64,000 bases of DNA from Azoarcus sp. (GTDB lineage: Bacteria; Pseudomonadota; Gammaproteobacteria; Burkholderiales; Rhodocyclaceae): contig DYFV01000007.1 of NCBI GenBank assembly GCA_020725025.1, positions 1 through 64,000 on the forward strand. The letters are read 5' to 3'. The notes under the pieces were generated by a model. The model made no database searches. It worked only from the letters and a program-made list of their open reading frames with translations, and was not told where the DNA came from. Of this stretch, positions 11,811 through 47,549 are shown in pieces (position 1 is the first letter of the stretch; every line of letters starts with the position of its first letter). The translations under genes and the position numbers were made by a program.

Positions 11811-11821
11811 GCGGTCGTTCA

Positions 11822-14081: not shown

Positions 14082-14917
14082 CGGGAGTGATCGTCAATGC
14101 GCTCACGATCGACGTGGAAGACTACTTCCAGGTTTCCGCGCTCGCACCGCATTTTCCGCGCAGCGAGTGGGAAAGCGTTCCCTGCCGCGTGGAACGCAAC
14201 GTCGAGCGCATCCTGGCGCTGCTCGCGGAGCACGATGCCCGGGCCACCTTCTTCACCCTCGGCTGGCTCGCGGAGCGCTACCCGTCGCTGGTGCGCAGCA
14301 TCGCCGAAGCGGGGCATGAGATTGCGAGTCACGGCTACAGCCACGAGCGTGCCAGCGCGCAGACGCCGGAGTGCTTCCTCGCCGACATCTCGCTCGCCAA
14401 GGCCGTGCTCGAGGACGTGGCCGGAAAGCCGGTGCGCGGCTACCGGGCGCCGAGCTTTTCCATCGGTGCGTCCAACCGCTGGGCTCACGACTGCATCGCG
14501 CAGGCCGGCTACGCCTACAGCTCGAGCGTGTACCCGGTCCGCCACGACCACTACGGCATGCCGGACGCGCCGCGCTTTCCGTATCGGCTGGAAAACGGCC
14601 TGCTCGAAGTGCCGGTGACGACGGTGCGCTGGCTCGGGCGCAACTGGCCGGCCGGCGGCGGGGGCTACTTCCGCCTGCTGCCCTACGCCGTGTCCCGTTG
14701 GCAGATCGGGCGGGTGAATCGCGAGGAAAGGCGGCCGGCCATCTTCTATTTCCACCCGTGGGAGATCGATCCGGAACAGCCCCGGGTGCGCGAGGCGCGT
14801 GCGCGCACGCGCTTTCGCCATTACGTCAACCTCGATCGCACGGAAGGCCGCCTGCGCCGGTTGCTGTGCGACTTCGCGTGGGGACGCGCGGATACGGTGT
14901 TTCACGGCGCCGCCTGA
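14078..14917 (+). CDS. XrtA-system polysaccharide deacetylase
   Basis: 279 residues, NodB-fold. LTIDVEDYFQ at 9-18 gives the metal/catalytic aspartates, HEIASHGYSHER gives the metal histidines, GYRAPSFS is motif 3, and the late FYFHPWEID is motif 5 with its histidine. This is the DUF3473-containing deacetylase subtype always found in exosortase A loci. It probably removes acetyl from HexNAc residues of the growing polymer or its lipid-linked precursor. No signal peptide is visible, so action at the cytoplasmic face is likely. The start overlaps the wecB stop as ATGA. Confidence 0.92.
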   Translation: MTGVIVNALTIDVEDYFQVSALAPHFPRSEWESVPCRVERNVERILALLAEHDARATFFTLGWLAERYPSLVRSIAEAGHEIASHGYSHERASAQTPECFLADISLAKAVLEDVAGKPVRGYRAPSFSIGASNRWAHDCIAQAGYAYSSSVYPVRHDHYGMPDAPRFPYRLENGLLEVPVTTVRWLGRNWPAGGGGYFRLLPYAVSRWQIGRVNREERRPAIFYFHPWEIDPEQPRVREARARTRFRHYVNLDRTEGRLRRLLCDFAWGRADTVFHGAA

Positions 14918-14943
14918 GCGCCGACTTTACGGAGCCGAGCGAG

Positions 14944-15981
14944 ATGGACCGCCCCGTCGCGACCGTGAAGGAGCTCAGCGAAGCCGATCGCGCGCGCTGG
15001 GATGCCTTCGTGCGCGCCTGCCCCGATGCGACCTTCTTCCACCTCTCGGCGTGGCAGCGCATCATGGAAGACGTCTTCCGGCACCGGACCTTCTTCCTCT
15101 ACGCCGAGCGCGCCGGCGAGATCGTGGCGGTGCTGCCGCTCGCACAGGTGAAGAGCCGTCTCTTCGGGCACGCGCTCACCTCGCTGCCCTTCTGCGTCTA
15201 CGGCGGAATCGCGGGCGCCGCCGAGGCCGCGCCGGCGCTCGAGGCGCATGCCGAGGCGCTCGCCGTGCGGCTGGGCGTCGATCACCTGGAGTACCGCAAC
15301 CTCGTGCCGCGCCACCCGGACTGGCCGCAGCAGGACCTTTACGCCACCTTCCGCAAGGAGATCGCTCCCGAGCCGGAGGCGAACATGCTCGCCATTCCGC
15401 GCAAGCAGCGCGCCATGGTGCGCAAGGGCATCGCGAACGGCCTGGCGAGCCGCTTCGACGAAGGCGTCGATACCTTCTTCGATCTCTACTCGGACAACGT
15501 GCTGCGCCACGGCACGCCGGCGCTGCCGCTGCGCTTCTTCGAGCGCCTGCGGACGGAATTTGGCGACGACTGTGAAGTACTCACGGTCGTCGATCGTTCT
15601 GGTATGCCATTATCAAGCGTCCTGAGCTTCTATTTTCGCGACGAGGTGCTGCCCTACTACGCGGGCGACGCCCTCGCAGCCCGTGAACTCGCCGCCAACG
15701 ATTTCAAGTACTGGGAGCTGATGCGCCATGCCTGCGGGAAGGGGGTCCGGTTGTTCGATTTCGGCCGCAGCAAGGTCGGCACCGGTCCGTACGCCTTCAA
15801 GAAGAACTGGGGCTTCACGCCGCAGCCGCTCGCCTACGAGTACCGGCTCTACCGCCGCGACAGCGTGCCGCAGAACAATCCCATGAATCCTCGCTACCGT
15901 CTCTTCATCGCCCTTTGGCGACGCCTGCCCCGCTCGGTGGCCAACGCGCTCGGTCCGCACATCGTGCGCAACCTGGGATGA
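14944..15981 (+). CDS. FemAB-type XrtA-associated protein
   Basis: 345 residues from ATG 14944. Two GNAT-like halves are recognisable: the first around FFHLSAWQRIMEDVF to VLPLAQVKS, the second around LSSVLSFYFRDEVLPYYAGD, ending in LFDFGRSKVGTGPYAFKKNW, which is characteristic of the family. FemAB and FemX proteins transfer amino acids from aminoacyl-tRNA to peptidoglycan stem peptides. The exosortase-associated branch is uncharacterised, so amino-acid transfer to a polysaccharide or lipid is only a possibility. That possibility matters here because of the Mur-ligase/Pth fusions at 39091-42955. Confidence 0.9.
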   Translation: MDRPVATVKELSEADRARWDAFVRACPDATFFHLSAWQRIMEDVFRHRTFFLYAERAGEIVAVLPLAQVKSRLFGHALTSLPFCVYGGIAGAAEAAPALEAHAEALAVRLGVDHLEYRNLVPRHPDWPQQDLYATFRKEIAPEPEANMLAIPRKQRAMVRKGIANGLASRFDEGVDTFFDLYSDNVLRHGTPALPLRFFERLRTEFGDDCEVLTVVDRSGMPLSSVLSFYFRDEVLPYYAGDALAARELAANDFKYWELMRHACGKGVRLFDFGRSKVGTGPYAFKKNWGFTPQPLAYEYRLYRRDSVPQNNPMNPRYRLFIALWRRLPRSVANALGPHIVRNLG

Positions 15982-23815: not shown

Positions 23816-25026
23816 ACATCCTCTATCTCTGCCACCGCTTCCCGTTTCCGCCCAAGCGCGGGGGCAAGATCCGCCCCTTCAACATGATCCGCCACCTCTC
23901 CGCCCAGGGGCATGCGGTCACCGTGTGCTCGCTGGCGCGCTCCCGCGAGGAGGCGGAGGAGGGGCGCGGGCTCGCACCCCACTGTGAGCACTTCGAGATG
24001 GGCCTGGTGAGCGATCCGGTTCAGACTTTGCGCATGGTGGCGCGCCTGCCGATTCCCACCCCGTCCTCCATGGGCTATTTCTACTCGCCGGAGCTCGCCC
24101 GCCAGGTGGGCAAGCTCCTCGCAGAGAAGAAGTGGGATCTCATCTTCGTGCACTGCTCCTCGGTCGCGCAGTACGTGGAGCACGTGAAGGGCGTACCCAA
24201 GGTGCTCGATTTCGGCGACATGGATTCGCAGAAGTGGCTGGAGTACGCCAACTACAAGCCCTTTCCCCTCTCCCTCGGCTACCGTCTGGAAGGGACCAAG
24301 ATGCTGGCCGCGGAGAAGCGGCTGGCCCGCCGCTTCGACCTGTGCACCGCCACCACCCGGGCCGAGTGGGAAACCCTCGAGAGCTACGGCACGGGGGTGG
24401 CCACCGACTGGTTCCCCAACGGGGTGGATGCCGAGTTCTTCAGCCCTGCCGATGCGCCCTACGACCCCGACACCATAAGCTTCATCGGGCGCATGGACTA
24501 TTACCCCAACCAGGAGTGCATGGCGCGCTTCTGCGACGAGACCTGGCCCTTGCTCAAGGCCCGCCGTCCCGGGATGAAGCTCCTCATCGTCGGCGCCGAT
24601 CCGTCGCCGGCGATGAAGAAGCTCGGTGAGCTGCCCGGCGTCACGGTGACGGGCTCGGTGCCCGACGTGCGGCCCTGGGTGCGCGCCTCGGCGCTGATGG
24701 TGGCGCCGCTCGCCATCGCGCGGGGTACCCAGAACAAGATCCTGGAGGCCATGGCGATGGGCGTGCCGGTGGTGACGAGCAGCGTCGCCGCAGGCGGCGT
24801 GGATGCGGAAGCCGAGGCGCACTTCCTGGTCGCCGACGGCCCGCAGGCCACCGCCGAGGCCATCCTGCGCGTCGTGGAGAACCCCGCCGAGCGGGAGCGC
24901 CTGGCCGCCGCGGGCCGTGCCCGCATGCTGAGCCACCACGCCTGGTCCCGCTCCATGCAGCGGCTCGACGGCATCATCGAGCGCTGCGTGTCATCCGTTC
25001 GCCAGCAGAAGGAAAACATTCAATGA
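23812..25026 (+). CDS. XrtA-associated sugar transferase, family 4
   Basis: 404 residues from ATG 23812. NILYLCHRFPFPPKRGGKIR at the N terminus is the hallmark of the PEP-CTERM/EpsH1 sugar transferase often called stp1. The donor-binding half has FIGRMDYYPNQE, VTGSVPDVRPWV, GTQNKILEAMAMGVPVV. It is cytoplasmic, adding a sugar to the repeat unit. It overlaps genes on both sides by four bases, so expression is tightly coupled with the dehydrogenase that follows. Confidence 0.93.
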   Translation: MNILYLCHRFPFPPKRGGKIRPFNMIRHLSAQGHAVTVCSLARSREEAEEGRGLAPHCEHFEMGLVSDPVQTLRMVARLPIPTPSSMGYFYSPELARQVGKLLAEKKWDLIFVHCSSVAQYVEHVKGVPKVLDFGDMDSQKWLEYANYKPFPLSLGYRLEGTKMLAAEKRLARRFDLCTATTRAEWETLESYGTGVATDWFPNGVDAEFFSPADAPYDPDTISFIGRMDYYPNQECMARFCDETWPLLKARRPGMKLLIVGADPSPAMKKLGELPGVTVTGSVPDVRPWVRASALMVAPLAIARGTQNKILEAMAMGVPVVTSSVAAGGVDAEAEAHFLVADGPQATAEAILRVVENPAERERLAAAGRARMLSHHAWSRSMQRLDGIIERCVSSVRQQKENIQ

Positions 25027-26339
25027 AAATCAGCATCTTCGGCCTGGGCTACGTGGGCGCCGTATCGCTCGCCTGCCTCGCGCGCGACGGCCACGAAGTC
25101 GTCGGCGTGGACATCGATACGGCCAAGCTCGACCTCATCCGCGCAGGCAAGACGCCGGTGGTGGAGGAGGGCATGGTCGATCTCATGGCGAGCGTGGCCG
25201 CGAGCGGCCGGGTGTCGGTGACCACCGACGCCGTGCGCGCCGTCCTGGACAGCGACCTCTCGCTCGTGTGCGTGGGTACGCCGTCGGCCGCCAACGGAAG
25301 CCAGGACCAGGGGGCGGTGCTGCGGCTGGCGGAGCAGGTGGGGGTGGCGCTCGCCGGGAAAGACGCGCCCCACGTGGTGGTGTTCCGCTCGACCCTGGTG
25401 CCCGGCACGGTGGAAGGCGTGCTGCGGCCCATCATCGAGCGCAGCTCCGGAAAACGCGACGGCGAGCATTTCCACCTCGCCTTCCAGCCCGAGTTCCTGC
25501 GCGAAGGCTCGTCCATCCGCGACTACGACAAGCCGCCGTTCACCGTGGTGGGGGCCAACCACCCGTTGCCGGGCGAGCGCCTGCGCGAGCTCTTCGGCCA
25601 TCTGCCGTGCAAGTTCATCGAGACCTCGGTGCGCGCCGCCGAGATGATGAAGTACTGCTGCAACAACTTCCACGCCCTCAAGATCACCTTCGCCAACGAG
25701 ACGGCGCGCCTGTGCGAGGCCCTGGGCGTCGACCCCTTCGAGGTGATGGACCTGGTGTGCCAGGACACGCAGTTGAACATCTCCCGCGCCTACCTGCGGC
25801 CGGGCTACGCCTTCGGCGGCTCCTGCCTGCCCAAGGACCTGCGCGCCACGAGCTATCTCGCCAAGACCCACGACGTGGAGCTGCCGATGCTCTCCGCGAT
25901 CATGACGTCCAACCGCCTCCACATCGAGCGCGCCATCGCCAAGGTGCTCGACGCCGGCTGCCGCCGGGTCGGCCTGATCGGCCTCTCCTTCAAGACCGGT
26001 ACCGACGATCTGCGCGAGAGCCCGCTGGTGATGCTCGCCGAGCAGTTGATCGGCAAGGGCGTGCAGCTCGCAATCTACGATCCGGATGTGCACCTTTCGC
26101 GCCTTCTGGGCGCGAACAAGCGCTTCATCGAGACGCGCCTGCCGCACTTGGGCGAGCTCCTGCGGGCCGATCTGGGGCAGGTGGTGGCCGACGCCGAGAT
26201 GCTGGTGATCGGCGCCTCGAACCTGGTGGTGCTCGAGGCGCTCGCGTCCCACGTGCGCGCCGACCAGCGCGTGCTCGACCTCGTCGGCCTGCCCGCCTCC
26301 CCGGCACTGGCCGGGCAGGTCGAGGGGCTCGCCTGGTAA
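25023..26339 (+). CDS. GDP-mannose 6-dehydrogenase-like nucleotide-sugar dehydrogenase
   Basis: 438 residues. Rossmann start MKISIFGLGYVGAVSLACLA, catalytic Lys210 in MMKYCCNN and the thiohemiacetal-forming Cys268 in FGGSCLPKD are present. Length, residue numbering and many segments (e.g. LIGLSFKTGTDDLRESPL) match AlgD of Pseudomonas closely by recall, better than UDP-glucose dehydrogenases. The reaction would be a four-electron NAD oxidation of GDP-mannose to GDP-mannuronate, giving the polymer a uronic acid. UDP-sugar specificity cannot be excluded from sequence alone. The start overlaps the preceding glycosyltransferase stop. Confidence 0.9.
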   Translation: MKISIFGLGYVGAVSLACLARDGHEVVGVDIDTAKLDLIRAGKTPVVEEGMVDLMASVAASGRVSVTTDAVRAVLDSDLSLVCVGTPSAANGSQDQGAVLRLAEQVGVALAGKDAPHVVVFRSTLVPGTVEGVLRPIIERSSGKRDGEHFHLAFQPEFLREGSSIRDYDKPPFTVVGANHPLPGERLRELFGHLPCKFIETSVRAAEMMKYCCNNFHALKITFANETARLCEALGVDPFEVMDLVCQDTQLNISRAYLRPGYAFGGSCLPKDLRATSYLAKTHDVELPMLSAIMTSNRLHIERAIAKVLDAGCRRVGLIGLSFKTGTDDLRESPLVMLAEQLIGKGVQLAIYDPDVHLSRLLGANKRFIETRLPHLGELLRADLGQVVADAEMLVIGASNLVVLEALASHVRADQRVLDLVGLPASPALAGQVEGLAW

Positions 26340-35994: not shown

Positions 35995-36010
35995 CCCGGG
36001 CGAGGGCAGC

Positions 36011-37096
36011 ATGCCGGGCCTGAGGGAGTGGCGCGACTACCGGCGCACGGCCGCCGAAGTGGCGAGCCTGGCGGGCGCCAGCCCCCACGCGGCGCTGCTG
36101 CGCATGCTCGCGACGCGGGCCTTGTACGGCCTGTCGGCGGGCGAATATGCGCTGTTCGGCCTGCACCGCACCCCCTTCGGCCGCCTGCGCGACTATCGCA
36201 CCAAGAAGCAGACCACCGCTTGCATCGCGCGGGTGAACCCCGATCACTGCCGGCCCCTGGTGGAGGACAAGCTGCTCTTCCATCGCGAATGCGCCGCGGC
36301 CGGGCTGCCCACGCCGCCGCTGCTCGCGATCCTGTCCTCGCGCGCGCCCCGCGATGCCGGGGGATTCGAGCTGCTGACCGACCTCGACGCCGTCCTGGCC
36401 TACTTCCGCAGCCGCGGCGAGGTGCGTCTCATCCTGAAGCCGCGCAACGACGCGCTGGGCACCGGCGTGCGCTTCCTCGCGCTGAAAGGCGGCGACGCTT
36501 TCGATCTCGCCGGCCGTCCGATCGACGTTCCGGCCTTCGCCGAATCGCTGCATGGCGACATGCAGCGTGACGACTATCTGGTGCAGGCCTTCGTGCCGCC
36601 GCATCCACTGGTGGCGCAGCTCGGCTCCGGCCGGGCGCTCGCCACGATACGCATCGTGACCCTCGCCCAGCCCGACGGCTGCACGCTGCCCTACGCGCTG
36701 CTGCGCATTCCGGCAGGGGACAATGTCTGCGACAACTTCTCCGGCGGCACGCGGGGCAACCTGATCGCGCCGGTGGACATCGCCACCGGACGCCTCGGGC
36801 CTGCCTGGGGGCGGCGCAACCCGGCGCTGGCGCACGCGCTGGAACGCTTCGAGCGCAATCCGGACACGGGGAACCCCATCGCGGGCGAGTACGTGCCCGA
36901 CTGGGGCGAGATCGCCGGGCTGGCACGGCGGGCGTCGGCCGCGTTCCCCGACCTGCCCCTGCTCGGATGGGACATCGCTCCTTCTGCCGACGGCGTGGTG
37001 ATCATCGAATCCAATTCCAATCCCGACATCATCGGCGCGCAGATCTGCTGTGGGCAGGGCGCGCGCACCCTTTTGGAACCGCTGTGGCGCGCCTGA
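36011..37096 (+). CDS. Sugar-transfer associated ATP-grasp protein
   Basis: 361 residues from ATG 36011. ATP-grasp motifs: the lysine segment LILKPRNDALGTGVRFL, and the metal-binding ESNSNPDIIGAQ close to the C terminus. The family, defined as sugar-transfer associated ATP-grasp, occurs in polysaccharide loci. ATP-grasp enzymes join a carboxylate to an amine or thiol through an acyl phosphate. A paralogue lies at 44365-45585 on the other strand. It overlaps the following acetyltransferase-like gene by 13 bases. It is the first of the cluster of ligase-type genes discussed under findings. Confidence 0.85.
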   Translation: MPGLREWRDYRRTAAEVASLAGASPHAALLRMLATRALYGLSAGEYALFGLHRTPFGRLRDYRTKKQTTACIARVNPDHCRPLVEDKLLFHRECAAAGLPTPPLLAILSSRAPRDAGGFELLTDLDAVLAYFRSRGEVRLILKPRNDALGTGVRFLALKGGDAFDLAGRPIDVPAFAESLHGDMQRDDYLVQAFVPPHPLVAQLGSGRALATIRIVTLAQPDGCTLPYALLRIPAGDNVCDNFSGGTRGNLIAPVDIATGRLGPAWGRRNPALAHALERFERNPDTGNPIAGEYVPDWGEIAGLARRASAAFPDLPLLGWDIAPSADGVVIIESNSNPDIIGAQICCGQGARTLLEPLWRA

Positions 37097-37728
37097 TCAA
37101 GGACCACTGGCGGCGCGCCCGCCGCAAACTCGCCAACCTCGCCCTGCTGCGCTGGGCCTGGAGCACCCGCTATCTCCTCATCCTGCGCATCGATGCGGAG
37201 ACCGTGCCGCCTGCCGACGGCGACGACGGGCTCGCCTGCAACGATCTCGATCACCTCGCACGCTTTTCGCAGACCGAGCGCTGGTTGTCCCGGGAGGCCT
37301 TCATGGACGAAGCGCGCTGCCGCATCGCGGAGGGGATGCGGGTCTACACCGCGCTGCGGGACGGTGTGCTGGTGCACTACGGGTGGCTGGTGCCCCGCCA
37401 GGACGAGGCGCGCTTTCCCTACGTCGGCCAGACCTACCGATTCCCGCCGGGAAGCGCGGTGCTCTTCAATGCCTATACCCACCCGGCCGCCCGAGGTACC
37501 GGGCTGCACGAGCGTTCCATGCGCCGGCGCGTTTCCGACGCCGCGGCGCTCCCGGGCACCCGCCACGTCTACACCGCCATGGAGTCGCACAATGCCGTGT
37601 CGCGGGCGGTGGCCGAGCGGGTAGGGTTCCGCTGTGTGGACGTGCTCTTCGAACGCGAGCGCTTCGGTCGCCGTTCGTCGGGACGGATGACGCCGGAGGC
37701 GTTCCTCCGGCGGGAGCGCGGCCGGTGA
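37084..37728 (+). CDS. GNAT-like acyltransferase
   Basis: 214 residues from GTG 37084, with GGAA just upstream. Open frame continues further 5' but there it runs inside the ATP-grasp gene. The central part shows a GNAT-like pattern: VLFNAYTHPAARGTGLHERS is the acyl-CoA loop region, followed by VYTAMESHNAVSRAVAERVG and a strand with FRCVDVLF. The first 50 residues are basic and may be membrane-associated. Likely role: acylation of an amine formed by one of the deacetylases or ligases. Substrate not visible. Confidence 0.75.
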   Translation: MARLIKDHWRRARRKLANLALLRWAWSTRYLLILRIDAETVPPADGDDGLACNDLDHLARFSQTERWLSREAFMDEARCRIAEGMRVYTALRDGVLVHYGWLVPRQDEARFPYVGQTYRFPPGSAVLFNAYTHPAARGTGLHERSMRRRVSDAAALPGTRHVYTAMESHNAVSRAVAERVGFRCVDVLFERERFGRRSSGRMTPEAFLRRERGR

Positions 37729-37739
37729 AGGGGGCGGCG

Positions 37740-38945
37740 ATGACGCCCGAGCGGCGGGCGCAACTGCCGGTGCTGGTGCCCGACGTCGAAGCGATCGGGA
37801 TGATCGCTGTGATCCGCTCGCTCGGACGGGCGGGCTACCCGGTGCATGCATGCTCCGCCCGGCCCGATGCGCTGGGCCTCGCGTCGCGCTTTGCGACGCG
37901 CGCCGCCGTGTGCCCGAGCTACGACGACCCCGGTTTCCTCGACTGGCTGGCGCGCTACGTGGCCGACCACGACATCCGTTGCATCGTCCCGAGCGAGGGA
38001 TTCCTGCTCGCGGTGCGGCCGGTCTTCGGGCGGTACGCGTCCCTTCTGCCGGTGCCTCCGGACGTGGAGCGCGTGTACGGCTGTCTCAGCAAGGCGACCG
38101 TCATCGAACGTCTGCTGGCGAGTCCGCAGAGCGCCGCGCATCTGCCGCCGACCCTGCTGTTGCGCGAGGGCGACCCCGAGCCCTCGGTCGAGGCGCTCGC
38201 GGCGCTCGGCCTGCCGCTGTTCGTGAAGGGAGACGGCGCGGACGACCGCGAGGGCAGCGACAACATGGTAGCCCGCGAGACGAGCGTGGACGCTGCGCTC
38301 GCGCGCATCCGCGAGCTGCGACGGCGCTACGCACGGGTGCTGGTGCAGGGTTTCGTCCCCGGTCAGGGCACGGGTGCCTATTTCCTGGTGCACCGCGGGG
38401 AAATCGTCCAGGAGTTCATGAACCGCTGCCTGCACGAGGTGCCCCACACCGGCGGCTATTGCTCGCTCCGCGAGAGCTGGTGGCATGGGGCGATGATGGA
38501 AGACGCCCGTGCCAAGCTCCGGCAGCTCGGCTGGGATGGAGTGGCGATGCTCGAGTACCGCTGGGATCCGGTCTCGGACCGGTTCTGGTTCATCGAGCTC
38601 AACGCCCGCTTCTGGGCCGCGCTCCATCTCGCACTGTACGCCGGGGTGGATTATCCGGCGATGCTGCTCGACGCCCGGCATGGCGGCGTTCCCGAGACGA
38701 AGACCCGCTTCCCGCTCGGCCTGCAGTGCCGTTATACGATCCCCTTCGAGGTCGGCTACGTGCTCTCGCGCTGGCGCGATCCCGACCTGGGCGCCGGCAC
38801 CAAGCTCCGCAGCGTAGCCGGCTGGTTCGCGCGATTCCTGCATCCGGCGATTCGCTCCGACCTGTACTTTCCGGGCGATCGGCGGCTTTACTTCATGCAG
38901 TGGCGCAGCTTCCTGGGAGCGCTCGTGCGCAAGCGGCGGGTCTGA
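37740..38945 (+). CDS. ATP-grasp carboxylate-amine ligase-like protein
   Basis: 401 residues from ATG 37740 (AAGGGGG upstream; GTG 37725 would overlap the previous stop as GTGA). The N-terminal part is a Rossmann-like preATP-grasp domain (VEAIGMIAVIRSLGRAGYPV). FVKGDGADDREGSDNMV contains the ATP-binding lysine, and FIELNARFWAALHLALYAGVDYP holds the metal-binding Glu and Asn. It is similar in outline to enzymes that ligate amino acids in polysaccharide or antibiotic pathways. It is unlike the PF14397-type proteins at 36011 and 44365. A hairpin and gap follow before the fusion genes. Confidence 0.83.
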   Translation: MTPERRAQLPVLVPDVEAIGMIAVIRSLGRAGYPVHACSARPDALGLASRFATRAAVCPSYDDPGFLDWLARYVADHDIRCIVPSEGFLLAVRPVFGRYASLLPVPPDVERVYGCLSKATVIERLLASPQSAAHLPPTLLLREGDPEPSVEALAALGLPLFVKGDGADDREGSDNMVARETSVDAALARIRELRRRYARVLVQGFVPGQGTGAYFLVHRGEIVQEFMNRCLHEVPHTGGYCSLRESWWHGAMMEDARAKLRQLGWDGVAMLEYRWDPVSDRFWFIELNARFWAALHLALYAGVDYPAMLLDARHGGVPETKTRFPLGLQCRYTIPFEVGYVLSRWRDPDLGAGTKLRSVAGWFARFLHPAIRSDLYFPGDRRLYFMQWRSFLGALVRKRRV

Positions 38946-39090: not shown

Positions 39091-41040
39091 ATGTCCGAAG
39101 CATTCGACTGCAGGAAGCCGGCTTGGACGGCTTACGCCCGGCGCCTGCTCGCGAAGGTGGACGGCTGGCGCCGGGGGGCGGCGTGGCATGCCGAATACTG
39201 GCGCTTTCTGCTGCCCGCCTTCGTTCATCGGCAGCGCTTGGGCTCGGTCGCGTTCGTCGGGATCACCGGCAGTGCCGGCAAGACCGCGACCAAGGACCTG
39301 AGCGCGGCCGTACTCGGCGCGGTCGGCCCTTGCCGCAGCACCGACCGCTCCACGAACGAGCACGTCGGGGTGGCGGAGACGGTCCTCGCCACCCGGCCGC
39401 GGGACCGATTCAGCGTGGTGGAGCTCTCGGCCGGCGGTCCGGGAAAGCTCGACCGACCGTTGCGTCTGGTGCGTCCGCGTATCGCGGTCCTTACTCTGGT
39501 GGCGCGCGACCACTACACGGCTTTCAAGAGCGTCGACGCCATCGCCGAGGAGAAGGGCAAGGTCGTCAGTGCCCTGCCGGCCGATGGCGTTGCGGTGCTG
39601 AACATCGACGATCCCCGCGTGCGGGCGATCGGCGAAGCCTGCGGACGGCGCGTGATCTGGATCGGAACGGGCGAGGGAGCCACCCTGCGGCTCGTCGAGG
39701 CGCGCTCGCGCTATCCCGAGCCGCTCGTGCTCACAATCGAGCATGGGGGCGAGCGGCATCAGGTCAGGACCGGTCTGCACGGCACCCACCTGGCGCTGCC
39801 CGTGCTCGCTGCGCTCGGCGTCGGAGTCGCGGCGGGCGTGCCGCTAGCGACCGCCATCACGGCGTTGGCCGATGCGGTCATCACGCCGGGACGGATGCAG
39901 GTGCTGCCGGCTCCGGACGGGGTGGTCTTCCTGCGTGACGACTGGAAAGCACCGCTGTGGTCCTTCGATGCACCCCTCGAGTTCCTGCGTCAGGCGAACG
40001 CGCAGCGCAAGGTCCTCATCATCGGGACCCTGTCGGACTATTCCCTGTCCGCCTCCAAGCTCTACCCGAAGATCGCGCGTCAGGCCCTGGAGATCGGAGA
40101 GCTCGTCGTGTTCGTCGGGCCCCACGCGCTGCGTGCGCTCAAGGCCCGGCGCCATCCGGACGACCGGGCACTGCTCGCTTTCCCCGACATCGGCGACGCC
40201 GCGGCACAGCTGCGCGAGCTTCTGCGCCCCGGCGACCTGGTGCTGGTGAAGGGCTCGCACAAGGCCGATCATCTCACCCGCATCATCCTTGACCGGTTCG
40301 AGCCCGTCAGTTGCTGGGACAGCACCTGCAGGCGCAGCATGTTCTGCGAGACCTGCTCGAGCCTGCGTGCCGGGGACGGCGCGCCCGCTGCGGCGGGCAT
40401 GATCCGGCCCGAGCCACCGGTCCCGTCGCCTTCCCGGACCGGGCTGGCGGTGGTGGTCGGCCTCGGCAATCCGGGGGATGGGTACCGTGCGACTCCGCAC
40501 AATGTGGGCCAGCGGGCGGTGGAGATCCTGGCCGAGTCGGCCGGCGCCGCGTGGGAGCCTGCGCCCGAAGGCCTGGTCGCGGCGGCGAAACTGGATGGCA
40601 AGGAGGTGATGCTGCTCCAGCCCGGGGTGGCGATGAACCGCAGCGGTTCGGCGGTGCAGGCCTTCCTCGCCCGTATGGGGTGCGAGGCGCACCGCTGCAT
40701 CCTGGTGCACGACGACGTGGACCTGGTGCTCGGCGACGTGCGCGTGAAGCGTGAGGGCGGCGACGGGGGGCACAAGGGGGTGCGTTCCGTCCTCGCCGGC
40801 CTCGACACGGGCGGACTGGTCCGAATCCGCATCGGCGTGCGCCGCCACGGCGATTTGCGCCGCGCCCGCGCCCTGGTGCTCGAACGCTTCCAGCCCGACG
40901 AGGAGACGATGCTGGCCCCGGCGCTGGCTCGCGCCGCCTCGCTCGCGCGCGAGAGCGTGCGCGCGGTGGTCGGCGACACGCCCGTGCCCGAAATCTACCG
41001 CCCATCGGGGATTGGAGAAGCGACCACTGCCGGCTCATGA
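39091..41040 (+). CDS. Mur ligase-like / peptidyl-tRNA hydrolase-like fusion protein, copy 1
   Basis: 649 residues from ATG 39091 behind a long G-rich ribosome binding site; the frame is open to 38983. Residues about 50-405 are MurF-like: P-loop GITGSAGKT (57-65), VVELSAGGPGKLDRP, ARDHYTAFKS, AEEKGKVV with the expected carbamylated-lysine region, LVKGSHKADH near 386-395. The MurF substrate domain is missing. C408-C413-C419-C422 forms CX4CX5CX2C, a putative zinc site. Residues 452-640 are Pth-like with catalytic Asn460, His470, Asp541 and tRNA-contact Lys553, but Asn114 of E. coli Pth is replaced by Lys562. No characterised protein with this architecture is known to me. An amide ligase coupled to an aminoacyl or peptidyl ester hydrolase or transferase is possible. 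Confidence 0.85.
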   Translation: MSEAFDCRKPAWTAYARRLLAKVDGWRRGAAWHAEYWRFLLPAFVHRQRLGSVAFVGITGSAGKTATKDLSAAVLGAVGPCRSTDRSTNEHVGVAETVLATRPRDRFSVVELSAGGPGKLDRPLRLVRPRIAVLTLVARDHYTAFKSVDAIAEEKGKVVSALPADGVAVLNIDDPRVRAIGEACGRRVIWIGTGEGATLRLVEARSRYPEPLVLTIEHGGERHQVRTGLHGTHLALPVLAALGVGVAAGVPLATAITALADAVITPGRMQVLPAPDGVVFLRDDWKAPLWSFDAPLEFLRQANAQRKVLIIGTLSDYSLSASKLYPKIARQALEIGELVVFVGPHALRALKARRHPDDRALLAFPDIGDAAAQLRELLRPGDLVLVKGSHKADHLTRIILDRFEPVSCWDSTCRRSMFCETCSSLRAGDGAPAAAGMIRPEPPVPSPSRTGLAVVVGLGNPGDGYRATPHNVGQRAVEILAESAGAAWEPAPEGLVAAAKLDGKEVMLLQPGVAMNRSGSAVQAFLARMGCEAHRCILVHDDVDLVLGDVRVKREGGDGGHKGVRSVLAGLDTGGLVRIRIGVRRHGDLRRARALVLERFQPDEETMLAPALARAASLARESVRAVVGDTPVPEIYRPSGIGEATTAGS

Positions 41041-41077
41041 TCGCTGACTCGGGGGCTGTCGCGGGGAGGCGGTGACT

Positions 41078-42955
41078 ATGCTGCGGGTCGGGCCGGAGCG
41101 AATCAGGACGATGTGGCGCGACGTGCGCTGGCAGTCGAACTACGTGCAGCTCTACATGCGCGCATTGCTGCACCGGCTGTGCCTGCCGCGGGTCACCTTC
41201 GTCGGCATCACCGGCAGCGCCGGCAAGACGACCGCGAAGGACCTCACCGCGCTGGTGCTCGAGGCGGCTGGGCCGTGCCAGCGTACGCTGCGCTCGAACA
41301 ACCGGCCCACGGGTGTGGCCGAAACCATCCTCGCCACCACGCGTCGCCATCGGTACTGCGTGGCGGAGGTGTCGGCCTCGCGACCCGGTTTTCTCGATCG
41401 GCCGGTACGCCTGCTGCGGCCGGACATCGCGGTGCTCACCATGGTCGCCCGCGACCACTACAGCGCTTTCCGCAGTGTCGAGGCGATCGCCGCGGAAAAG
41501 GGGAAACTCGTGGCCGCGGTGCCTCGGCACGGGGCGGCGGTGCTCAACATCGACGACCCGCTGGTGCGCGCGATCGGGGAGCGCTGCGCATGCCGGGTGA
41601 TCTGGATCGGCCAGGGGGAGGAGGCCACGCTGCGCCTGCGCTCGGTACGCTCGGCCTACCCCGAGCCGCTCACCCTGGAGGTGGAGTACGGCGGCGAGGT
41701 CTTCGAGGTCTACACCGGACTCCATGGCAAGCATCTCGCGCTGCCGGTCCTGGCGGCGCTCGGTGTCGGGATCGCGGCCGGGGTACCCCTCGATGCGGCG
41801 GTGGCGGCGCTCGCTGCGGCTCGGCCGGCGGAAGGGCGCATGGAGATCGTCCGCAGCTCGGACGGGGTCACCTTCCTTCGCGACGACTGGAAGGCGCCGC
41901 ACTGGTCGCTCGGCCTGCCCCTCGCCTTCCTCGGCGAGGCGCGTGCGGCGCGCAAGGTCGCGGTCATCGGTACGATCGCCGACTCCCCCAGCTCGCCCGC
42001 GCGGCGCTACGCGCGCGCGGCACGGGAGGCCCTGCAGGTGGCCGACGTGGTGGTGTTCGTCGGGCCGGACGCACTGCACGCCTTGCGTGCGGGGGATCTC
42101 ACCGAGTCGCAGTCGCTCAACGCCTTCACCGACCTGCGCGCCGCAGCCCATTTCCTGCGCACCGAGCTGCGTGCCGGCGATCTCGTGCTGCTCAAGGGCA
42201 GCAACAGGGCCGATCATCTGGGACGGCTCGTTCTCGATCGGGAGGGGTTGGTGCAGTGCTGGCGCGATCGCTGCGGCATGCTCACCTTCTGCGGGCATTG
42301 TCCGCAGTTGTCCATCCCCGGCGGGCCGTCGCAGGTCGACGCGTCGGGCTCGGCGTCGGGCACGGTCACGGTCCTGGAGGACGCGCCGCCGGTCCTGGTC
42401 GGGCTCGGCAACCCGGGCGAGCGTCACCGCGGTACGCCGCACAATGCCGGCCGCCGGCTCCTGGAAGAGCTGGCGCAGGCGTCCCACTCGGAATGGCAGG
42501 CGCAATCGGAAGGGTTGGTGACCCGCGTCATCATCGAGCAGACGCCGGTGACCCTCTTCCTTCCCGGCGTCCCGATGAACCAGAGCGGAACGGCACTGCG
42601 CGCCTTCCTGCAGCGTACCGGCGCCGACCTGCGGCGCTGCCTGCTGGTGCACGACGACATCGATATCCCGCTGGGCGACGTGCGCCTCAAGCGCAACGGC
42701 GGCGATGCCGGCCACCGCGGGGTGCGCTCGGTGATCGGGGCACTCGGGACCGACGCGGTGACCCGCGTGCGAATCGGTGTCCGCCCGCCCGGCGACGAGC
42801 GCAGCGGACGCGCGCTCGTCCTGGCACGCCTGTCGGCAGAGCAGGAGGCGCTGCTGGTGCGCAGCATCGAGCGCGGCATGGCGCTGCTGCGCACCGAGGT
42901 GAGGGGCCTCGCGGGACGCCCGGCTGCGGCCGCCGCTGCCTCCATGGGCGAGTGA
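41078..42955 (+). CDS. Mur ligase-like / peptidyl-tRNA hydrolase-like fusion protein, copy 2
   Basis: 625 residues from ATG 41078 (GGAGG eight bases upstream; GTG 41072 is too close to it). Same architecture as copy 1: P-loop GITGSAGKT (43-51), VAEVSASRPGFLDRP, ARDHYSAFRS, LKGSNRADH, then CX4CX5CX2C at 394, 399, 405 and 408. The Pth-like part has Asn445, His455, Asn501, Asp526 and Lys538, with Arg547 at the position of E. coli Asn114. The two copies share domain order and key residues but differ widely elsewhere, so the duplication is old and the copies may have different substrates. The MurL-like gene follows after 16 bases. Confidence 0.85.
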   Translation: MLRVGPERIRTMWRDVRWQSNYVQLYMRALLHRLCLPRVTFVGITGSAGKTTAKDLTALVLEAAGPCQRTLRSNNRPTGVAETILATTRRHRYCVAEVSASRPGFLDRPVRLLRPDIAVLTMVARDHYSAFRSVEAIAAEKGKLVAAVPRHGAAVLNIDDPLVRAIGERCACRVIWIGQGEEATLRLRSVRSAYPEPLTLEVEYGGEVFEVYTGLHGKHLALPVLAALGVGIAAGVPLDAAVAALAAARPAEGRMEIVRSSDGVTFLRDDWKAPHWSLGLPLAFLGEARAARKVAVIGTIADSPSSPARRYARAAREALQVADVVVFVGPDALHALRAGDLTESQSLNAFTDLRAAAHFLRTELRAGDLVLLKGSNRADHLGRLVLDREGLVQCWRDRCGMLTFCGHCPQLSIPGGPSQVDASGSASGTVTVLEDAPPVLVGLGNPGERHRGTPHNAGRRLLEELAQASHSEWQAQSEGLVTRVIIEQTPVTLFLPGVPMNQSGTALRAFLQRTGADLRRCLLVHDDIDIPLGDVRLKRNGGDAGHRGVRSVIGALGTDAVTRVRIGVRPPGDERSGRALVLARLSAEQEALLVRSIERGMALLRTEVRGLAGRPAAAAAASMGE

Positions 42956-42971: not shown

Positions 42972-44390
42972 ATGGCCTCCGTCTCCTACGGCACCAAGCG
43001 CTTCGTCCGGTCGGTACGCAACCTCTTCTCGGACCCTCCGCCGCGCCGTCGCACACTCGTCCTGGCTGCAGCCCGGCCGGACGGGGAGGGAGTCGAGTTC
43101 GCCTACACGGCGCGCGGCCGGCGCTATCGCATCCACATGGTTCTGCCGGCTCCGCTCGCGGCAGGTCTTCCCGCCCTGCCCGAGGGCGCGCGGGCCCAGG
43201 TGCTCACCGCCATCGGCCTGGCGTTTGCGCCCTTTCTGTTCAAGCTGAGCGACTTTGCCACCGTGCGGGTCGGGACGGCGCCGCTGGACGAACGCGCACG
43301 CGCCTTCTTCGGAGAGTTCCTGCGCGGCGGGCTGGGCGAATTCCGCTACCTCCAGGGCCTGGATCCGTCCCGGCCGATCCGCGTGGAGGCCAACGGTGAG
43401 CGCCCCCCGGCGCCGATGATGCTCGCTGCGCGCGAAGAGCTGCTGATGCTCAACGGCGGCGGCAAGGACACCATCGTGGCCGCGGAGCTCCTGAAGGCCG
43501 GCGGCCAGCCTTTCACCTGGCTCACCATCCGGCCGAACGCCACGCGCCGGCGGGTGGTGGCGCTATCGGGCAACCCGGACGCGATCGAGGTCGGCTACGA
43601 GGTGGACGAGGAGATCGACCGGCACCGCGCCTACCCCTGGGGCCACGTGCCGCACACCTCGATCGTGCTTGCCATCGGCGTGCTGGTGGCGATGCTCACC
43701 GGCAGGCGCTACGTGGCGGCCGGCAACGAGCGCTCGGCGAACTTCGGCAACGTCCGCCACCGGGGCTTCGAGGTGAACCACCAATACACCAAGTCGTTCG
43801 CGTTCGAGCGCGGCTTCGCCGACTTCGTGTCCCGCTGCGTGAGCCCCGACATCCGGGTGTTCAGCATCCTGCGGCCCTTCCACGACCTGCAGCTCGCGCG
43901 TCTCTTTGCCGGACACTCCACCTATCTGCCGCACTTCATCAGCTGCAACAACGGCATCCGGGCGGGGACGTGGTGCAAGGCCTGCCCGAAGTGCGCGTTC
44001 ACCGCGCTGGCGCTCTATCCCTTCCTGACGTCGGAGCAGGTTGCGCTGGTGTTCGGCGAGGACATCCTGCAGCGGCCCGTCATCCGCCGGCACATCCTGG
44101 ATCTGGTGAGGGGCGCAGTGCGGCCGTGGGAGTGCGTCGGCACCCGCGAAGAGTGCGCGCTGGCGCTCTCCCTGCTGCTCGCGCGAAACCCCGGCCTTCG
44201 GTTTTCCGGCGAGCCCGGCCGCGCCGCCCTGGAGGAGGCCGTGGCCGGGGTCGACGCGGCGCGGCTCGAGGCCTCCATCCTCGCCGCGACGCACCCCGAG
44301 CACGCCATTCCCGCCCCGCTGGTGACCCGGCTCAACGCCAGTCTCGGCGCGCTCGGCGCGCCGCTCATCGCACCGGCGCCTGCTGCGTGA
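42972..44390 (+). CDS. MurL-like ATP-dependent epimerase homologue
   Basis: 472 residues. The C-terminal two thirds match, by recalled motifs, MurL, the enzyme that epimerises the terminal L-Glu of UDP-MurNAc-L-Ala-L-Glu in Xanthomonas. Seen here are LMLNGGGKDT (158-167, ATP pyrophosphatase-type loop), GHVPHTSIV, AAGNERSANFGN (249-260), VNHQYTKSFAFE (268-279), SCNN and WCKACPKCAF (335-343). The Cys-rich segment suggests a metal site. With two MurF-like ligases directly upstream, it may epimerise an amino acid that they have attached. This is unlikely to be the peptidoglycan enzyme, because the locus is polysaccharide-related. The last 26 bases overlap the convergent ATP-grasp gene. Confidence 0.8.
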   Translation: MASVSYGTKRFVRSVRNLFSDPPPRRRTLVLAAARPDGEGVEFAYTARGRRYRIHMVLPAPLAAGLPALPEGARAQVLTAIGLAFAPFLFKLSDFATVRVGTAPLDERARAFFGEFLRGGLGEFRYLQGLDPSRPIRVEANGERPPAPMMLAAREELLMLNGGGKDTIVAAELLKAGGQPFTWLTIRPNATRRRVVALSGNPDAIEVGYEVDEEIDRHRAYPWGHVPHTSIVLAIGVLVAMLTGRRYVAAGNERSANFGNVRHRGFEVNHQYTKSFAFERGFADFVSRCVSPDIRVFSILRPFHDLQLARLFAGHSTYLPHFISCNNGIRAGTWCKACPKCAFTALALYPFLTSEQVALVFGEDILQRPVIRRHILDLVRGAVRPWECVGTREECALALSLLLARNPGLRFSGEPGRAALEEAVAGVDAARLEASILAATHPEHAIPAPLVTRLNASLGALGAPLIAPAPAA

Positions 44391-45585
44391 CCGGGGATGG
44401 GGCGCCGAAGCCGCTGCTGTTCCCGCCCACCCTCAGGCCGGAGCGGGCGATGCCGTCGTGGGGGGCGAGTGCCCGGCCCAGCGGTCCCGCGAGCAATCCG
44501 CGGTCGTGGGCGAGTTGCAGCGTTCGCAAGCGCGGATGGGTATTGGCCTCCATCACCAGCGGGCCTTCATCGGTCACCGCGACGTCCCAGCCGATGCAGC
44601 GCAGATAGGGCATCTTCGCCGCCGCGTTGCGCGCCAGGGTGGCGATCTCGGGCCACCAGGGCAGGACGCGACCGGTGATCGCGACTCCGGTGGCAGGATG
44701 GGTCCGCTGGTGCCGCGGCAGGTCACGTTCCAGGTAGGCGGCCAGTCCGAGCATCCCGCTTTCCGGGTCGATCGGCACCACCACGCCGCCGCCGGTGAAG
44801 TTGTCGGTGGGAAGCCGCCCGAAGCCCAACCGCAGCACCGCCGCGACGACGACCACGGCGGTGTCCTCGGCCAGTGTCAGGATGCGCACCGTGGGGCACA
44901 CGGCGGGGACGATCTCGGCCATCTCGGGATGCGGACGCAGCAGGCGCTGGATGACGAAGCGCGCCGTGGGGCCGGCCGCCTCGATGTGCCTTACCACCGC
45001 CTCGAGCGCGATCGCCTCGCCGCCGGGCAGGCGGCGCCAGCTCGGTGTCTCGGTGACCCGCTCGCCCAGCGCGAGCGCACCTTCGCCTTCCGCGCCATCG
45101 GCCGGCTTGAGGAAGAGGTTGGCGCGTCCCGGCACGCTCAGGAAGCGGCGCAGGTCGACGCTGCTCGTCAGGCGCTGCCCCAGGCTGGGTGCGTTTCCCG
45201 GCGCGACGGTGGCGACGATCTCGGGCACGGGGATTTCCAGGGATCGGGCGAGGGTGTGGAACAGCACCTTGTCGCGCGCGAGGATGTCGTAGACCGGGGG
45301 GTTGAGCGGCCGGAAGTAGCGCGTCTTCTCGAACCAGCCGAGAAAGGCGCGCTTCTCGGCTGTTCCGAGCGAGCTCCGGTACAGGCCGTGGTGGTAGTAG
45401 TCCTCGGCAGTGACGGCGCTCGTCACGAGCAGCCGCGCCTGCTCGGCGATGCGCCGTGTGCGAGGCGGGAAGGCCGGGCCGGCGAAACGGCCGTGCCATT
45501 CCAGGTCGCGCAGCATCTGGCGCGCGAACCCCGCGCAGCGCCGGGCGAGGCGGGGCAGCAGGCGGACGTCGGACAGGATGGGCAT
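44365..45585 (-). CDS. Sugar-transfer associated ATP-grasp protein, second paralogue
   Basis: 406 residues. NLFLKPADGAEGEGALAL holds the ATP-binding lysine, RFVIQRLLRPHPEM the hinge region, DNFTGGGVVVPID the ATP-site loop, and LVMEANTHPRLRTLQ the metal-binding Glu and Asn. Overall order matches the protein at 36011 (NTDNFSGG-type loop, GWDIA/GWDVA before the last motif), but sequences are only moderately similar. It ends the long minus-strand group and is convergent with the MurL-like gene. Likely a carboxylate-amine or carboxylate-hydroxyl ligase acting in polymer modification. Confidence 0.83.
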   Translation of the reverse strand: MPILSDVRLLPRLARRCAGFARQMLRDLEWHGRFAGPAFPPRTRRIAEQARLLVTSAVTAEDYYHHGLYRSSLGTAEKRAFLGWFEKTRYFRPLNPPVYDILARDKVLFHTLARSLEIPVPEIVATVAPGNAPSLGQRLTSSVDLRRFLSVPGRANLFLKPADGAEGEGALALGERVTETPSWRRLPGGEAIALEAVVRHIEAAGPTARFVIQRLLRPHPEMAEIVPAVCPTVRILTLAEDTAVVVVAAVLRLGFGRLPTDNFTGGGVVVPIDPESGMLGLAAYLERDLPRHQRTHPATGVAITGRVLPWWPEIATLARNAAAKMPYLRCIGWDVAVTDEGPLVMEANTHPRLRTLQLAHDRGLLAGPLGRALAPHDGIARSGLRVGGNSSGFGAPSPVTQQAPVR

Positions 45586-45718: not shown

Positions 45719-47530
45719 TCAGGCGACGGCTGCGCTCGTGGGGTGATGTGCCGCCAGCCAGTGCTCGAGCATCATCACGATCCACACCATCTCTCCGTAG
45801 TAGCCGGGATGGGCCGGCAGCAGCTCGGTGACGAGGCGCCGGAGGAAGTCTTCGCGCACGATGCCGCGTGCCCCGAAGGACTCGAGCGCCCGGGTGGACA
45901 TCCTGCTCAGGCCCTCATGGCTGACGGCCCACACGCCGAACGGCAGGCCGAAGCCGTGCTTCTTCTTGGCGATGATCTCGGGCGGCAGGAAGTCCTTGAG
46001 CGCCTGCTTGAAGAACCAGCGCAGGGTGAGGCCCTTCAGCTTCCACTCGGGCGGCAGGCGCAGCGAGAAGTTCACCAGCGCGTCCGAGAGCAGCGGGAAG
46101 GCGACTTCCACCTCCGCGAGCCGTGTCGCGCCGACCACCTTGGGCAGGTCGTTGTCGGCCAGGGTGTACTTCCAGTCGAAGGCCAGCATGCGGTTGATGA
46201 GGCTTCCCGCCTGCACCGACTGCCAGGTCTCGCGCTGCATCTGCGACGGGTGGCCGGCATCGACGGCGGCAAGGAAATCGGGCTCGAACACCTTGTCCAG
46301 GCCGAGACGCAGCAGCAGGTTGTACATCTCCGTGCGCTCGGGCAGGGGCACCCTGGCCTGCTCCACGTAGCTCGCGCCCTTGCGCAGCAGCGGCAGGCGG
46401 GACAATGCGGGCAGGGCGAGGGCGGGCTCGATCACCCGGCGCGCGAGGCCCTGGGGCACCGCGTCGTACCAGCTGAACACCCTTTGCTTCGCATAGCGCG
46501 AATTACCGCCGAAGAGCTCGTCGCCCCCGTCACCGGCGAGGAGGCGCTCGACGCCGTCCTCCCGGGCGCGGCGGGCGCAGATCCAGGCCGGGACCGCAGA
46601 GGAGTTGCCGAAGGGCTGATCGAAGTGCGTGGCCACGAGCGGGATGCCCTCGAGCAGGTCCTCCGGGGTCACGTAGTACTCGTGGTGCTCCGTACCGAAG
46701 TGCCGCGCCGCGATGCGCGCGTAAGCCATCTCGTCGTAGCCGCTGGCGTCGAAGCCGATCGAGTAGGTGCGGGCCGGCCTGCCCAGGACCTTGCACAGCA
46801 TCCCCGAGACGGTGGAGCTGTCGGTGCCTCCGGACAGAAAGGCGCCCACGTCCCGGCCGGCGGCGTCCTCGGCCACCGAGCGCTCCACGATGTCCAGAAA
46901 TTCGCGGCGCAACGCCTGGAAGTCGCCACCCGCCGGCTCTTCGAACGCCGGTTGCCAATACGGCTCGCTGCGGGCGCGCCCGCCCTCGAAGCGTAGCGCA
47001 TGCGCCGCCGGCAGCCGCGCGATGCCCGCGAAGAGCGTCTCCGGGGCCGGGATCTGGTGGAAGAAGAGGTAATCGAAGAGCGCCTGCGGATTGATCGTGC
47101 GCCCGGCGATCGGCACGCAATCGGCCCGGTCGGAGAAGGCGAAGAGGCCTTCCGCGGCCGCGTGGCAAAGCGGCAGGACGCCGAAGCGGTCGACCGCCAT
47201 CCAGCAGCGCCGCGCGCGGGTGTCGATCACCACCACCGAGAAGCGGCCGGATGCGCTTCGGGCCGCGCCGGCGCCGGTCTCGACCCAGGCGCGCAGCCAG
47301 GCCGAGGCCGCGCCCTGCTCGCGGGCGAGGCGGTCGAGGGCCGGATCGTTGAAGCGGGGGGTGCCCAGCGCCGCGCACAGGAGATCCGTCTCGTGCATGA
47401 CCGAGACCCCCGTGCCGACCGCAAGCACGCCGCCCGTGAATCCGATCGGGGTGAGCCGCGCGTCGAGCTGCGGCGGCTCGGCTGGCGGCTGCCCGTCGGT
47501 GGTGAAATAGCCTTGAATTGCTGGAAGCAC
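45719..47530 (-). CDS. Asparagine synthase-like protein lacking the glutaminase cysteine
   Basis: 603 residues from GTG 47530, which has AAGGAGG five bases upstream. The frame is open to 47740, but the extra part overlaps the flippase gene and is arginine-rich. The N terminus reads (M)LPAIQGYF where active members have MCGI, so Cys2 is missing and no other cysteine is near. The synthetase P-loop FLSGGTDSSTV (233-239 core) and LAGDGGDELFGGN are intact. The enzyme should still adenylate a carboxylate, but must use free ammonia or another amine, as in beta-lactam synthetase or lasso-peptide cyclases. It lies in the same transcript as the Wzx-like gene. Confidence 0.85.
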   Translation of the reverse strand: MLPAIQGYFTTDGQPPAEPPQLDARLTPIGFTGGVLAVGTGVSVMHETDLLCAALGTPRFNDPALDRLAREQGAASAWLRAWVETGAGAARSASGRFSVVVIDTRARRCWMAVDRFGVLPLCHAAAEGLFAFSDRADCVPIAGRTINPQALFDYLFFHQIPAPETLFAGIARLPAAHALRFEGGRARSEPYWQPAFEEPAGGDFQALRREFLDIVERSVAEDAAGRDVGAFLSGGTDSSTVSGMLCKVLGRPARTYSIGFDASGYDEMAYARIAARHFGTEHHEYYVTPEDLLEGIPLVATHFDQPFGNSSAVPAWICARRAREDGVERLLAGDGGDELFGGNSRYAKQRVFSWYDAVPQGLARRVIEPALALPALSRLPLLRKGASYVEQARVPLPERTEMYNLLLRLGLDKVFEPDFLAAVDAGHPSQMQRETWQSVQAGSLINRMLAFDWKYTLADNDLPKVVGATRLAEVEVAFPLLSDALVNFSLRLPPEWKLKGLTLRWFFKQALKDFLPPEIIAKKKHGFGLPFGVWAVSHEGLSRMSTRALESFGARGIVREDFLRRLVTELLPAHPGYYGEMVWIVMMLEHWLAAHHPTSAAVA

Positions 47531-47549
47531 GTCGACCTCCTTCTCTCTG

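Follow-up and report, generated by a model that had tools for sequence, protein, structure and literature searches.

We found that two adjacent genes of Azoarcus sp. encode proteins in which the middle and C-terminal domains of a MurF-like Mur ligase are joined, through a four-cysteine motif (CX4CX5CX2C, hereafter Cys4), to a complete peptidyl-tRNA hydrolase (Pth) domain. The genes, for fusion proteins A and B, lie in an exosortase A (XrtA) exopolysaccharide (EPS) locus within the 64,000-nucleotide stretch analysed here (GenBank assembly GCA_020725025.1, contig DYFV01000007.1, positions 1 to 64,000, forward strand; hereafter the window). We speculate that both proteins are amide ligases of EPS decoration whose Pth half is an active hydrolase. 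As a whole this reading is tentative, with a chance slightly short of even, and its parts differ in strength: judged by its sequence, the Mur half is likely an ATP-dependent amide ligase, the Pth half is probably hydrolytically active, and we lean towards EPS or its precursor as the substrate of the ligase.

The two frames are uninterrupted, co-directional and 37 bases apart, and both contain the P-loop GITGSAGKT. A profile search placed all three Pfam domains above cut-off in A and B (Table 1), bearing out a preliminary description of this DNA, which had proposed a MurF-type ligase half fused to a complete Pth half. It had also described the ligase as lacking the UDP-N-acetylmuramic acid (UDP-MurNAc) domain; indeed, this Mur N-terminal domain is absent from the Pfam matches of A and B at E 0.01, and the P-loop is preceded by 43 (B) and 57 (A) residues. 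Identity between the two proteins is 62% over the ligase half and 51% over the Pth half. In searches of solved structures, MurF chains matched the ligase half and Pth chains the Pth half. The structure predicted for B by AlphaFold2 from an alignment of 9 rows (mean predicted local distance difference test score, pLDDT, 78.9; predicted template modelling score, pTM, 0.60) gave the same picture in Foldseek, with MurF 4qf5 at 1.7e-26 and Pth 7y52 at a template modelling score of 0.86 by target length.

By its above-cut-off Mur_ligase_M and Mur_ligase_C domains and its ATP/Mg catalytic residues, the ligase half belongs to the Mur ligase superfamily. K50 (in the P-loop), E97, H127, K141 and D159 (B numbering) are identical in 20/20 family rows and in 12/12 other Mur ligases, and R254 in 19/20 and 12/12; for comparison we took the first frames that carried the motif, six of which, on a long branch, may not be MurF. 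The fusions share with MurF the middle and C-terminal domains, the catalytic residues and the best structural match; they differ from it in the missing UDP-MurNAc domain, the additional Cys4 motif and Pth domain, and a separate clade (100/99). Scores against TIGR01143 (murF) of 177.8 and 182.7 bits, below the curated cut-off of 288.6, place them outside MurF itself. The four cysteines are invariant in a 13-row alignment and the pattern occurs in three further proteins, although some of the family rows were retrieved by means of a profile in which the motif is present; the cysteines may form a metal site. Mur ligase cores outside the four muramyl ligases are also found in CapB, cyanophycin synthetase, MurT and FPGS; the available text of PMC11915815 lists 12 Mur-domain families, names a Pth domain in none of them, and puts CapB closer to FPGS than to the muramyl ligases.

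The Pth half resembles bacterial Pth1 in its entire domain and in scoring 134.6 and 125.1 bits against TIGR00447 (pth), above the equivalog cut-off of 100; the PF01195 cut-off is also passed. K105 and R133, which we take to be tRNA-contact residues, are conserved in 11/11 fusions with a C-terminal Pth, and R133 also in the one fusion of reversed order described below. N10, H20, N68 and D93 are kept in all 12; three of these, N10, H20 and D93, are named as catalytic in the available parts of PMC4929431 and PMC8071115. An alignment of 20 standalone Pths (own genome, related genomes and Marinobacter) with that of E. coli has 43 invariant columns, and 25 of these are conserved throughout the 11 C-terminal fusions. 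Unlike Pth1, the domain is fused and has N114 replaced by K, R or T; in the 11 C-terminal fusions, moreover, R19 is replaced by P and the domains fall to one side of a tree branch (100/98). It is not a relocated housekeeping enzyme in the nine of the eleven fusion genomes searched (all except those of loci L025 and L027), each of which has a separate standalone pth: the own genome, G007, G008, G386, G422 and four Marinobacter genomes.

A survey of genomes for the same fusion, as the preliminary description had suggested, returned 12 fusion proteins in 11 genomes: A and B, two of the same genus (G007, G008), six of Marinobacter, one of G422 and the reversed one of G386. Because the architecture recurs in other genomes, the fusions are genuine, as had been supposed, and an artefact of a frame error joining separate genes is ruled out. 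Full-length relatives occur in 3 of 17 same-genus genomes, the own genome included. A genome scan gave 29 loci, namely seven of Marinobacter, six of them with Pth, and 22 Pth-only matches. A scan of 369 genomes from the class gave matches in five of them at 1e-60: the own genome, G422 and G386 with fusions, and G180 and G409 with ligase and Cys4 and no Pth. In 398 genomes of the phylum, the matches listed include G512, G516, G532 and G579, with ligase and Cys4 and, at 443-451 residues per frame, no room for a Pth domain (three of the four sequences were retrieved); most other matches listed stop short of the Cys4 region, as expected of canonical MurF. A Pth-less form also lies amid glycosyltransferase genes on a Gemmobacter plasmid; the plasmid search gave 11 records at 1e-20, none reaching 80% query coverage. 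Pth-less ligase-Cys4 genes of another class in the same phylum share a metabolic-gene setting (L122:9354-10658, L123:9212-10516, L125:2883-4193).

In the reversed fusion (L067:9156-11066) Pth comes first, followed by Mur ligase and Cys4, in a single unbroken frame within its contig; it is known from one genome, 85% complete and in 620 contigs. That genome also has a second ligase-Cys4 copy, cut by a contig end (L124:33-593). No further reversed fusion was found at 1e-45 among 369 genomes, a sample overlapping the other class scan. The occurrence of the pairing in both domain orders counts for our reading and suggests a possible way of attaching amino acids to polysaccharide.

How are the fusions related? 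In a ligase tree of 34 hand-picked rows, the ligase-Cys4 family is split from other Mur ligases at 100/99, and the C-terminal fusions form one clade (100/100) together with L029, a Pth-less Marinobacter protein nested in the Marinobacter group, which therefore probably lost its Pth. A pairs with the G007 homologue (100/99) and not with its neighbour B, so the two are not a recent tandem copy; by these trees they are old relatives, and the idea that the divergent pair has two roles gains plausibility. The reversed fusion groups with the Pth-less proteins of G180 and G409 (97/93). In the Pth tree, likewise of hand-picked rows (26 of the 27 standalone Pth loci supplied, L036 having been dropped by the motif filter; 7 of the 22 Pth-only loci in the input), a branch (100/98) separates the 11 C-terminal fused domains from all others, including the reversed one, which has a long branch of its own. 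Forcing G386 in with the other fusions cost 12.9 log units in the ligase half, with an approximately unbiased test p-value (p-AU) of 0.128, and gave a p-AU of 0.102 in the Pth half. A second, separate origin of the reversed fusion is thus favoured by the tree topology, not significantly, and we do not accept it as proved.

The preliminary description had placed the genes in an EPS locus, and the window indeed contains an XrtA exopolysaccharide gene set, with chain-length factor, tyrosine kinase, FemAB-type protein, XrtA, glycosyltransferases, amidotransferase, nucleotide-sugar dehydrogenase, O-ligase, decarboxylase and AMP-forming ligase. The dehydrogenase is a possible source of a uronic acid carboxylate. 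The island that contains A and B is variable. It is bordered on one side by an ATP-grasp-like gene, whose distribution among the same-genus genomes (3 of 17) coincides with that of the fusion, and on the other by an ATP-grasp gene on the reverse strand; in the window the island holds A, B and, 16 bases after B, a MurL-type epimerase gene. In G008 it holds the fusion, then an ATP-grasp and a second Mur ligase. The G007 order is ATP-grasp gene, IS5-type transposase gene, fusion, VanY-like D,D-carboxypeptidase frame (L054:9759-10412, overlapping the end of the fusion gene; PF02557 1.9e-28) and an ATP-grasp gene in two pieces, with a Mutator-family transposase gene between them (10874-12196, reverse strand). 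These sister islands vary in content and yet all call on the chemistry of peptide stems, with ligases, an epimerase and a D,D-peptidase among their genes. We therefore read the island as a cassette by which an EPS building block receives amino acids or short peptides, and the context points to amino-acid or peptide decoration of the XrtA exopolysaccharide.

The MurL-type protein shares 31-33% identity with five MurL-family proteins from elsewhere and keeps GGGKD, NHQ, CN..WC..CPKC and ECVG; its 195 bits against an equivalog cut-off of 700 leave it outside MurL proper (NF041275). According to the available text of PMC8788868, Xanthomonas MurL inverts the terminal L-Glu added by MurD2, using ATP and forming AMP. 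In both cases a Mur ligase gene adjoins a gene for a MurL-family ATP-dependent epimerase; the window differs in that the ligase is MurF-like and carries Pth, the MurL homologue scores far below the equivalog cut-off and the own genome has a glutamate racemase above cut-off. The low score and the racemase together make a role outside peptidoglycan likely, and service to peptidoglycan unlikely.

Table 1. Features of the window (positions in the 64,000-nucleotide stretch) and of related Marinobacter loci
Feature	Position	Strand	Support
FemAB-family XrtA-associated protein	14917..15981	+	TIGR03019 516 bits, cut-off 260
Nucleotide-sugar dehydrogenase	25023..26339	+	TIGR03026 357 bits, cut-off 189.8
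Sugar-transfer-associated ATP-grasp protein	35996..37096	+	PF14397
GNAT-fold protein	37093..37728	+	PF13302/PF00583
ATP-grasp-like protein	37728..38945	+	weak family matches
Fusion protein A, 649 residues (Mur ligase middle and C domain / Cys4 / Pth)	39091..41040 (coding to 41037, then stop)	+	
A Mur_ligase_M, residues 58-244	39262..39822	+	Pfam 93.6 bits, cut-off 24
A Mur_ligase_C, residues 267-390	39889..40260	+	Pfam 41.8 bits, cut-off 28.4
A CX4CX5CX2C, C408/C413/C419/C422	40312..40356	+	invariant in alignments
A Pth domain (Pept_tRNA_hydro), residues 454-623	40450..40959	+	Pfam 139.3 bits, cut-off 27
Fusion protein B, 625 residues (architecture as A)	41078..42955 (coding to 42952, then stop)	+	
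B Mur_ligase_M, residues 44-230	41207..41767	+	Pfam 102.8 bits, cut-off 24
B Mur_ligase_C, residues 253-375	41834..42202	+	Pfam 43.4 bits, cut-off 28.4
B CX4CX5CX2C, C394/C399/C405/C408	42257..42301	+	
B Pth domain, residues 440-605	42395..42892	+	Pfam 130.5 bits, cut-off 27
MurL-type epimerase	42972..44390	+	NF041275 E 1.6e-57, 195 bits, equivalog cut-off 700
Second sugar-transfer-associated ATP-grasp protein	44365..45585	-	TIGR02291 (alpha-L-glutamate ligase-like), below cut-off
Asparagine-synthase-type amidotransferase	45719..47542	-	PF00733 E 2.3e-74
QueC-like PP-loop protein, CxxCxxC-type site, with CapA-like protein	L028:9076-9810, L024:5364-6098, L026:13186-13917, L030:13130-13843, L025:14429-15175		

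We speculate that the Mur half, in the cytoplasm, would phosphorylate a carboxylate of an EPS precursor, which could for instance belong to a uronic acid or to the end of a peptide under construction, and would then form an amide between it and an amino acid's amine. A and B may each form a different bond, after which the MurL-type protein could convert the last residue from its L to its D form, as MurL does after MurD2 in Xanthomonas, and the Pth half would hydrolyse an N-acylated aminoacyl ester in the same reaction. In the most economical version the amine donor would be an aminoacyl-tRNA and the product of ligation an N-acyl-aminoacyl-tRNA, from which Pth hydrolysis would release product and tRNA. 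Pth1 is known to cleave N-blocked and not free aminoacyl-tRNA, and such a donor would yield exactly this substrate class. That a tRNA ester is the substrate of the Pth half is nevertheless unlikely in our view. Slightly less probable still is the full scheme, in which a tRNA-dependent Mur ligase would link a sugar or peptide carboxylate to an aminoacyl-tRNA through its amine, the amino acid's own carboxylate being shielded by the tRNA ester, Pth would free the N-acyl-amino acid and, with the MurL-type and VanY-like neighbours, a peptidoglycan-like stem would be built on EPS. Substrates, order of steps, cell compartment and use of tRNA are what we infer here; the domains, the retained catalytic residues, their conservation and the locus were observed. 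The preliminary description, right about the anatomy, had suggested that the halves couple amino acids to a carboxylate and use or release an aminoacyl ester, a chemistry that is plausible.

Several observations weigh against amide ligases of EPS decoration with an active Pth half. In the ligase, an asparagine and a tyrosine found in 12/12 and 11/12 other Mur ligases are changed in the ligase-Cys4 family at B positions 223 and 271 (one family row retains the tyrosine), so that the amine or acyl substrate may be unusual. Residues 389-434 of the B model, comprising Cys4 and the linker, have a pLDDT below 50, and the relative placement of the two active sites can therefore not be derived from it. 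The G386 fusion adjoins thiC and an efflux protein gene, with KDO-transferase-type and PfkB/cytidylyltransferase genes of lipopolysaccharide-core type some kilobases away, the G422 fusion lies apart from any recognised EPS gene in its annotated surroundings, and the MurL-type gene is confined to the window among the family loci inspected. L029 ends just past the Cys4 motif, and the only Pth found in its genome is a standalone one; the reversed fusion has not kept K105. N114, a substrate-cleft residue, is changed in 12/12 fusions and R19 in 11/12, and the Pth half diverges faster: over 45 pairs from 10 fusions its mean identity is 0.52, and that of the ligase half 0.67. These last changes would suit a Pth half that has lost catalysis and serves as a binding or scaffold module, holding tRNA or a partner protein in the manner of chloroplast CRS2, a Pth-like protein with catalysis lost that was among the solved-structure matches to the fusions. 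We consider this unlikely: N10, H20, N68 and D93 are all kept, and position 114, read afterwards in all 22 Pth-only loci (L031-L052), is K or R in 16 and N in 6, a share biased by the fetching of these loci for their resemblance to B. In the five K/R loci whose genomes were checked (L031, L034, L038, L045, L052) no other Pth was found in the genome, several of these being metagenome-assembled genomes; because the change thus occurs in the sole Pth found, it does not by itself show inactivity, and we did not accept a dead Pth on this ground. The N114 change may not even define the fusion family. Many of the Pth-only loci are from Patescibacteria.

Alternatively, the Mur half could use free amino acids, with the Pth half acting as an editing or trimming hydrolase that removes misjoined residues. 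Pth1 is an esterase on tRNA and not a known amidase, and R133 and K105, kept in the 11 C-terminal fusions, would be needless for editing a tRNA-free product; we regard this alternative as doubtful, even though the Pth catalytic residues are retained and L029 shows that the ligase exists without Pth. It also agrees with the known Mur-family enzymes, which act on amino acids, peptides or their polymers as described in the available text of PMC11915815. The placement in EPS loci might itself be loose, the ligases making a poly-amino acid or modifying something other than polysaccharide. Indeed, the genes annotated around the G422 fusion encode EamA, diacylglycerol kinase, RF-1-domain, HI0933-like, HDOD, RuBisCO and site-specific recombinase proteins, and two proteins without a match. 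The Pth-less L122, from another class, sits amid metabolic genes such as those for glucose-6-phosphate dehydrogenase and glutamine synthetase, and a CapA-like protein is encoded in five of seven Marinobacter loci. Set against the XrtA-type loci of the window, G007 and G008 copies and the glycosyltransferase genes in 6/6 Marinobacter fusion loci, one of which (L027) has an exosortase, this evidence leaves a role outside EPS very unlikely.

Further features of these loci deserve mention. PaaK-like adenylating enzymes are encoded in 7/7 Marinobacter loci and a QueC-like PP-loop protein in 5/7, its fold being assigned from a model of mean pLDDT 73. A kinship between this protein and the MurL-type epimerase was considered on motif resemblance alone and rejected, as two profile comparisons gave nothing. 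Further Mur ligases lacking the UDP-MurNAc domain, Cys4 and Pth occur in or near the same EPS loci (L053:17275-18537, L026:1422-2588). In the window, positions 33191-35994 encode a DNRLRE-domain protein followed by a kelch-like protein, both also found in G008, and the ATP-grasp-like protein has a second own-genome copy, 49% identical (G000:C98:40947-42095, L138). Defence-system profiles matched none of A, B and the reversed G386 protein, and a search of a viral fold library gave nothing useful.

A literature search, in which subscription journals were thinly covered, found no paper linking a Mur ligase with a Pth domain or with that hydrolase in an exopolysaccharide context, none linking Mur ligase, capsular polysaccharide and uronic acid, none linking Pth, aminoacyl-tRNA, ligase and biosynthetic gene cluster, and none tying ATP-grasp to exosortase. 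In a paper on Thauera MZ1T flocs (PMC4784049) the word 'peptidyl' is absent and 'ligase' refers to T4 DNA ligase alone. Features that the analysis adds to the preliminary description are the Cys4 motif, a broader family without Pth, one fusion with its halves in reversed order, neighbouring genes of MurL and VanY type, and the replacement of N114.

To our knowledge, the amide-linking of amino acids to bacterial polysaccharides is poorly understood at the enzyme level. The fusion family offers defined genes with testable chemistry for such a linkage, and since ligase and Pth are paired in both orders, whether their chemistries are functionally linked can be tested directly. If the tRNA version were true, it would be a new route by which aminoacyl-tRNA enters envelope synthesis, a single polypeptide carrying out both ligation and release.

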